Below are positions 63,436-63,517 of a DNA stretch of 64,000 bases, piece after piece. The notes under the pieces were generated by a model that worked only from the letters and a program-made list of their open reading frames with translations, was not told the origin of the DNA and did not search any database. This DNA is from Sphingomonas sp. LT1P40 (GTDB taxonomy: Bacteria > Pseudomonadota > Alphaproteobacteria > Sphingomonadales > Sphingomonadaceae), in contig NZ_JAXOJT010000001.1 of assembly GCF_036663835.1 (NCBI RefSeq), positions 1,550,001 to 1,614,000 of the forward strand. The letters are read 5' to 3'. Position numbers and translations under genes: made by a program. The stretch's first letter is position 1. Each line of letters starts with the position of its first letter.

Positions 63436-63517
63436 GTTGGCGTAGGGGAATTGGTAGACCCACCGGTCACAACCGGACGCTGGAAACAGGGTGTGGGTTC
63501 GAGTCCCACCGCCAACC
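63436..63517 (+). tRNA. tRNA-like element between rpoB and rpoC
   Basis: An 82-base cloverleaf six bases after the rpoB stop. The acceptor is GTTGGCG with CGCCAAC, the D-arm GGGGAATTGGTAGACCC, a 16-base variable region, the T-arm GTGGG-TTCGAGT-CCCAC (canonical loop), and the next base is C. It is leucine-class in its D and T arms, but the anticodon arm is 14 bases, CCGG-TCACAA-CCGG, with a 6-base loop. By position 34-36 could read CAA or CAC, but neither sits on a normal 5-bp stem. No encoded CCA. It is either a pseudo-tRNA or a processing signal. Confidence 0.65.

Follow-up and report, generated by a model that had tools for sequence, protein, structure and literature searches.

To our knowledge, tRNA-like RNAs that function outside translation have seldom been described in bacteria, and we know of none in which a conserved 4-nt loop replaces the anticodon loop. 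The non-proteogenic tRNA-Gly of staphylococci takes part in a non-ribosomal reaction; unlike the family reported here, it possesses an anticodon, and the use of its amino acid is known. The closest parallel is tRNA-Other of Bacillus cereus, a pseudo-tRNA that is reported to act outside translation and to have, like our family, a limited host range, and whose deletion alters the phenotype (PMC3399842). A role outside translation is predicted for the present family, and tRNA-Other keeps a Trp anticodon, lies on one island and is part of a larger RNA, whereas our family has a 4-nt loop, 21 elements at scattered loci and covariation (PMC3399842). Allo-tRNA, selC* tRNA-Cys and tRNA-Sec have long variable arms and stems of non-canonical length, and the partners of tRNA-Sec leave the anticodon arm unbound; their acceptor and anticodon stems are longer and their anticodons real, whereas the present elements have a shortened arm and no anticodon (PMC7609411). 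Integration sites and CRISPR arrays are reported to contain tRNA gene fragments whose low-scoring calls are mislabelled in annotation; low-scoring calls are common to them and to our family, but the fragments are partial genes and our elements complete cloverleafs (PMC9897764).

A literature search, outside which most subscription papers lay, found nothing on these elements. What is new, as judged from sequence, is a small tRNA-like RNA whose anticodon loop has given way to a conserved loop of four bases. Our preferred reading, to which we give a probability of roughly 0.57, is that el1, an element between rpoB and rpoC, belongs to an undescribed family of sphingomonad tRNA-like RNAs that do not decode, keep their anticodon arm by selection and act in trans, and that el1 is released from the rpoBC transcript. 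The window is the whole stretch of 64,000 nucleotides of Sphingomonas sp. LT1P40 that was analysed. El1 and its neighbours are placed in it as follows.

59194 to 63429, + strand: rpoB (beta subunit), upstream neighbour of el1, with Pfam Rpb2 domains
63436 to 63517, + strand: el1, tRNA-like cloverleaf of 82 nt (ARAGORN, tRNA-???; RF00005, 44.6 bits; parsed arms)
63436 to 63442, + strand: acceptor stem of el1, 5' strand GTTGGCG, pairing with 63510-63516 in 7 of 7 pairs, with double changes relative to relatives
63445 to 63461, + strand: D arm of el1, GGG - GAATTGGTAGA - CCC, with A14 and G18G19 present
63463 to 63476, + strand: anticodon arm of el1, CCGGT-CACA-ACCGG, 5 bp and a 4-nt loop without U33 and without an anticodon
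63477 to 63492, + strand: variable region of el1, ACGCTGGAAACAGGGT, 16 nt, a short hairpin with a GAAA loop
63493 to 63509, + strand: T arm of el1, GTGGG-TTCGAGT-CCCAC, with 5 of 5 T-stem pairs (parsed arms)
63510 to 63516, + strand: acceptor stem of el1, 3' strand CGCCAAC (parsed arms)
63566 to 64000, + strand: rpoC (beta' subunit), downstream neighbour of el1, with Pfam Rpb1_1; the start of a gene that continues beyond the window

El1 is a class-II, leucine-type cloverleaf located 6 nt 3' of the rpoB stop and 48 nt 5' of the rpoC start. An earlier note on this DNA had proposed such a cloverleaf, with a perfect acceptor stem, between the two genes, and the ARAGORN call, the RF00005 score (gathering score 29) and the Pfam domains of the neighbours agree with it. 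For 63436-63517(+), ARAGORN gave 'tRNA-???' with an anticodon of two bases. Base 73 is C, followed by ACT instead of CCA, and CCA is unencoded. The anticodon arm had been described as 14 bases with 4 bp and a 6-nt loop; the length stands, but 5 bp with a 4-nt loop is the better reading. Identification of el1 as tRNA-Sec or allo-tRNA was rejected, since its acceptor and T stems have 7 + 5 bp and its anticodon stem 5 bp, with no lengthening. In the 111 nt from 63420 to 63530, none of 200 shuffles folded as well (z -4.68), and for el1 alone 2 of 200 did. Because the minimum-energy fold of el1 differs from the cloverleaf (-37.9 vs -28.6 kcal/mol for the cloverleaf), thermodynamics alone would not settle the structure and comparison with relatives decides; we take covariation across relatives to be decisive for the structure being more than chance.

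Two further structures in the window, a second tRNA-like element and an ordinary leucine tRNA, were used for comparison.

51240 to 51310, - strand: el2, second tRNA-like element (RF00005, 41.2 bits; 81.6 bits with model R1, whose training set includes el2)
50410 to 51003, - strand: padR-like regulator gene, downstream of el2 (PF03551)
58876 to 58960, - strand: ordinary tRNA-Leu(CAA), with CCA encoded (ARAGORN)

The nearby tRNA-Leu(CAA) had been recognised before, and the genome has normal leucine tRNAs for five anticodons (TAA, TAG, CAA, CAG and GAG). With these tRNAs and the 4-nt loop of el1, the earlier proposal of a non-elongator RNA dispensable for decoding was upheld. El1 resembles the ordinary tRNA-Leu of the same genome in the D-arm motif GGAATTGGTAGAC (or a close one) and the long variable arm; the ordinary tRNA differs in its 17-nt anticodon arm with U33, its encoded CCA and A73. 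CCA is encoded in all 10 long-arm tRNAs of this genome, unlike in el1 and el2. The anticodon arm of el2, CCGGT-CACA-ATCGG, is short like that of el1 and its variable loop has 5 nt; the acceptor and T stems are perfect, whereas G18G19 and the T-loop TTC are lost. El2 and the padR-like gene share a strand, with el2 lying 236 nt upstream. Just downstream of the type-A element of Sphingobium lactosutens (5811-5894 of contig L063) there is likewise a padR gene in the same orientation.

Searches among relatives brought the number of elements to 21, namely 16 of type C, three of type A, el1 and el2; 19 lie beyond the window, in Sphingomonas and relatives. A first pattern matched 9 of 199 family genomes; its eight matches besides el1 and el2 all scored at most 17.1 bits with R1 and were discarded as chance. 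A tighter pattern matched 2 of 295 genomes of the genus. When an exact pattern was run against 84,980 species, each represented by one genome, three of 11 matches were cloverleafs (101-106 bits with R1), from Sphingobium lactosutens, Sphingomonas pituitosa and the Proteobacteria MAG SKS3.bin69, and the other eight, with at most 16.3 bits, were ruled out. Type C was a further subfamily, brought out by the R1 model. The strict pattern GCGTNNNGGAATNNNWAGACN{6,9}YACA was then found at 16 places in 15 of 295 genus genomes, against one place for the backward control, in 4 of 347 family genomes (two from other genera), in 2 of 118 order genomes (both from the genus itself) and in 2 of 318 class genomes, one of which, G910, matches neither R1 nor model R2; these prevalence figures are lower bounds, as the pattern overlooked the type-C element of genome G208 (loop ACCA), a chance find. 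The 15 genus genomes comprise 13 with type C, one (G220) with a type-A element equal to that of S. pituitosa, and the window genome with its two elements. All members found in this sampling belong to sphingomonads or to one unplaced MAG. The sporadic spread (at least 15 of 295 genus genomes) is more in keeping with an accessory or mobile role than with a housekeeping one.

Scores alone do not delimit the family. With R1, tested type-C elements reach 45-68 bits and tRNA-Leu up to 66; with R2, type A and el2 reach 45-53 bits and tRNA-Leu up to 60. Genome scans with R1 under strict filters could not single out type C among the matches listed, because the elements of G193 and G011 obtain 45-48 bits, under many tRNA-Leu. 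Loop length, unlike these scores, separates all members cleanly from tRNA-Leu. ARAGORN detects none of the 16 type-C elements and Rfam, at E up to 0.1, one of the 10 tested, so type-C members are probably unannotated in public genomes.

The anticodon loops of the 21 elements are TACA (15), CACA (5) and ACCA (1); this uniformity is partly built in, because 18 elements came from patterns or models biased towards the short arm, most of them towards YACA as well. The ACCA loop of G208 was found without a pattern, and only in the first set did the search select for stem pairing. In all 21 the loop has 4 nt and lacks U33, and its second base is A in 20 and C in one. The inability to decode therefore follows from the structure, in which the 4-nt loop holds no anticodon. 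A decoding tRNA with an unusual loop would account for the cloverleaf and for D and T loops that are mostly canonical, but it is refuted by this structure and we give it practically no weight, the more so as normal tRNAs exist for five leucine anticodons.

Across the 21 elements, standard pairs occupy 412 of 420 stem cells. Double-sided changes affect 14 of 20 pairs, including all five of the anticodon stem, although such cross-type counts depend on the placement of the type-C gap, which the hand parse puts at position 26 and MAFFT elsewhere. The base of the anticodon stem is A-T in 16 elements vs C-G in two, and its middle C-G in 16 vs G-C in five. In the initial five elements, double changes affect 9 of 21 pairs, a level that none of 500 shuffles reaches; an eighth acceptor pair is possible in four of these five and impossible in el1. 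Within type C alone (16 elements), 98.2% of cells are paired and 3 of 25 pairs doubly changed, a level reached by 15 of 500 shuffles; double changes are few there because the core hardly varies. The 33-nt core of D and anticodon arms equals the consensus in 9 of 16 type-C elements and matches it at 29-32 of 33 positions in the rest, while the variable arms differ. The T loops of 12 of 16 type-C elements have 8 nt, which is atypical for tRNA. The covariation shows a 5-bp, 4-nt arm, not the ordinary 5-bp, 7-base arm that the earlier note named as a possible misalignment, and by this covariation the arm is held at 5 bp + 4 nt by selection on structure. On the alignment, the elements are best described as a family of tRNA-like RNAs that are by structure unable to decode, neither a misaligned ordinary arm nor simple decay.

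Part of the family does decay. Stem mismatches occur in some copies (those on contigs L113, L115, L116, L136 and L063), in all three type-A elements the basal pair of the anticodon stem is a C-C mismatch, and some plasmid copies are broken at the 5' end. Such mismatches and broken copies, together with the leucine-like D arm and the loss of G18G19 and the T-loop TTC in el2, are what a decaying tRNA-Leu pseudogene or integration-site fragment would show. That explanation seems very improbable to us, for el1 and el2 are complete at both ends of the molecule, and the stems pair, co-vary and close the same 14-nt arm in 21 of 21 elements with differing stem sequences (18 of 21 being finds of arm-favouring searches).

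The place of el1 raises the question of a function for the rpoBC operon itself. The earlier note had suggested that RNase P and RNase Z cut the polycistronic messenger here and thereby tune beta against beta'. Such a cis element would accord with the position 6 nt after the rpoB stop and the intact acceptor and T arm. Of 61 genomes of the same genus, 55 matched the query, and 30 loci, the window genome included, were compared. With R1 and ARAGORN, the cloverleaf was absent from the rpoB-rpoC gaps of all 29 other genomes; R1's sole other match at these loci (L014, 14.6 bits) lies outside the gap. A tblastn search, run with a positive control, detected neither rpoB nor rpoC in the retrieved flanks of the remaining 20 elements, among them el2. 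A conserved rpoBC element was therefore rejected on its absence in 29 of 29 relatives, and a conserved cutting of the messenger is unsupported, the other 20 members being located elsewhere; a cis role specific to this operon we consider improbable. It does draw support from the strong structure of this gap in general: the gap folds with z below -2 in 28 of 30 genomes, a count that covers rpoB-rpoC alone and cannot mark rpoBC as special among operon gaps. In 27 of the 29 others the structures are simple hairpins or long palindromes, and the strong structures (loci L011-L040) are formed by many unrelated sequences; the exceptions, L027 and L035, have longer gaps that by eye resemble small reading frames. 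The slot may thus favour some structure, though not that of el1 in particular. In the LT1P40 genome, the rpoBC mRNA may be cut at el1.

Elsewhere the elements are dispersed. With R2, each of the 16 type-C genomes has one intact type-C copy, at 81.1-112.5 bits (all being R2 training sequences), and the next matches score at most 60.1 bits; seven R2 matches below 61 bits were inspected and comprised six ordinary tRNA-Leu and one broken copy. Genome G340 (contig L213) has, besides its intact type C, a second, 5'-broken copy like those on two plasmids of S. paucimobilis (L137 and L138, at about 5987-6066), whose loop is TAAA. On these plasmids, a Fic-family gene is adjacent to the broken copy and transposase genes lie 2-4 kb off. 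In a flank comparison of 19 elements (171 pairs), no location was shared; 121 of the 171 pairs match over the element, the similarity reaches no further than 61 nt upstream and 37 nt downstream of it, and the longest matches between genomes are 156-164 bp.

A different site in each genome and matches of this length would fit a mobile element, and the family might be a unit of up to about 165 bp that spreads in sphingomonads, with a tRNA-like core serving the element itself and a copy acquired by rpoBC. Uses of the core in transcript stability, 3'-end recognition or recombination, and a link to REP-type palindromes, are conceivable. The broken plasmid copies near transposase genes and the palindromes that fill the rpoB-rpoC slot of relatives point the same way. 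Against spreading speak the single intact copy in 16 of 16 genomes and the covarying stems. REP elements usually have many copies per genome, and a REP/BIME-type repeat was rejected on the single copy. REP-like ends are also rare in type C: of the 16 elements, five have GGACRTT no more than 60 nt upstream, three have AATGTCCG at the 3' end, and two have both. At two loci, an empty-site comparison gave no clean boundaries, empty site or target duplication: at the G279 locus the corresponding gap differs altogether in three relatives, and at the G417 locus the sole near relative, which has no element there by R1, differs over a stretch of about 840 nt that matched nothing among plasmids. On balance, we hold this explanation to be unlikely.

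One type-C element and el1 were searched against phages without a match, three pattern searches of viral contigs gave 0, 0 and 9 matches, eight of the nine without an R1 match at the site, and a phage origin is unsupported by these searches. The ninth, on viral contig L227 at 12192-12333(-), resembles a tRNA over 142 nt that include a large internal insert, and it scores 37.7 bits with R1. A search of type A against plasmids found none. El1 has a weak blastn match on the Legionella adelaidensis plasmid NZ_LR134431.1 at 12171-12244 (75.7% over 86%, E 3e-4); it may be an ordinary tRNA, and no feature is annotated there.

We therefore return to the family of non-decoding, trans-acting RNAs as the preferred reading. 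The family would derive from a leucine-type class-II tRNA whose anticodon arm contracted to 5 bp and a 4-nt loop, and its typical member would be a dispersed gene of about 80 nt, present as one intact copy per genome and acting in trans. For the role of the family, a trans-acting small RNA is favoured. In the type-C loci, only A at -11 (11 of 16) exceeds the shuffle threshold among 45 upstream columns, GCTAT ends 9-11 nt 5' of the acceptor in 7 of 16, and after base 73 the place of CCA is taken by A (14 of 16) and T (11 of 16), CCA being unencoded in all 16. A promoter of their own, with transcription starting at or next to the first acceptor base, is weakly supported by these columns. A sigma-70 promoter scan gave nothing at el1, and decides nothing there because two type-C loci (L106 and L111) yielded no promoter either. 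Given its position 6 nt 3' of rpoB, el1 is most likely transcribed with rpoBC. RNase P recognises and needs the acceptor-T domain, and that of el1 is intact. El1 would be freed by RNase P and 3' processing, and its release would incidentally separate rpoB from rpoC mRNA.

Lacking an anticodon, a member would depend for charging on a synthetase to which the anticodon is dispensable. In E. coli this holds for the enzymes for Leu, Ser and Ala, and tRNA-Leu identity resides in A14 and G18G19 of the D loop, a long variable arm and A73, which LeuRS requires. Base 73 of type C is A in 13 of 16 elements, G in two and an ambiguous TA end in one; by these identity rules, leucyl-tRNA synthetase would fit the D arm and, in most type C, A73. 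El1 has A14, G18G19 and a 16-nt variable region but C73, and as LeuRS needs A73 its charging is doubtful; el1 is probably uncharged and would act as a binding partner or decoy, not as an amino-acid donor. A more elaborate proposal combines several of these features, namely a mobile, single-copy, anticodon-less tRNA of leucine type that is charged by LeuRS for a non-ribosomal reaction or lures away an enzyme that binds tRNA, and that, having inserted there, punctuates the rpoBC messenger as well. We regard it as speculative, with rather low odds.

If the members are expressed and charged, they would offer a natural test of tRNA function with decoding removed and the rest kept. If they are mobile, they would represent an unusual kind of small element, with a tRNA fold at its centre.

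The genes next to the elements vary. A shared gene partner was rejected, as one neighbour protein from each of 10 of 13 loci revealed no common Pfam family: Imm53, ribosomal L28 and glyoxalase were found once each and nothing in five, and below threshold YezG-like and HAMP matches occurred once each. At one type-C locus, an orphan Imm53 immunity gene (5219-5554(+) of contig L124) adjoins the element. At another, the genes beside the element (5965-9000 of contig L134) resemble a P2-like phage tail module.
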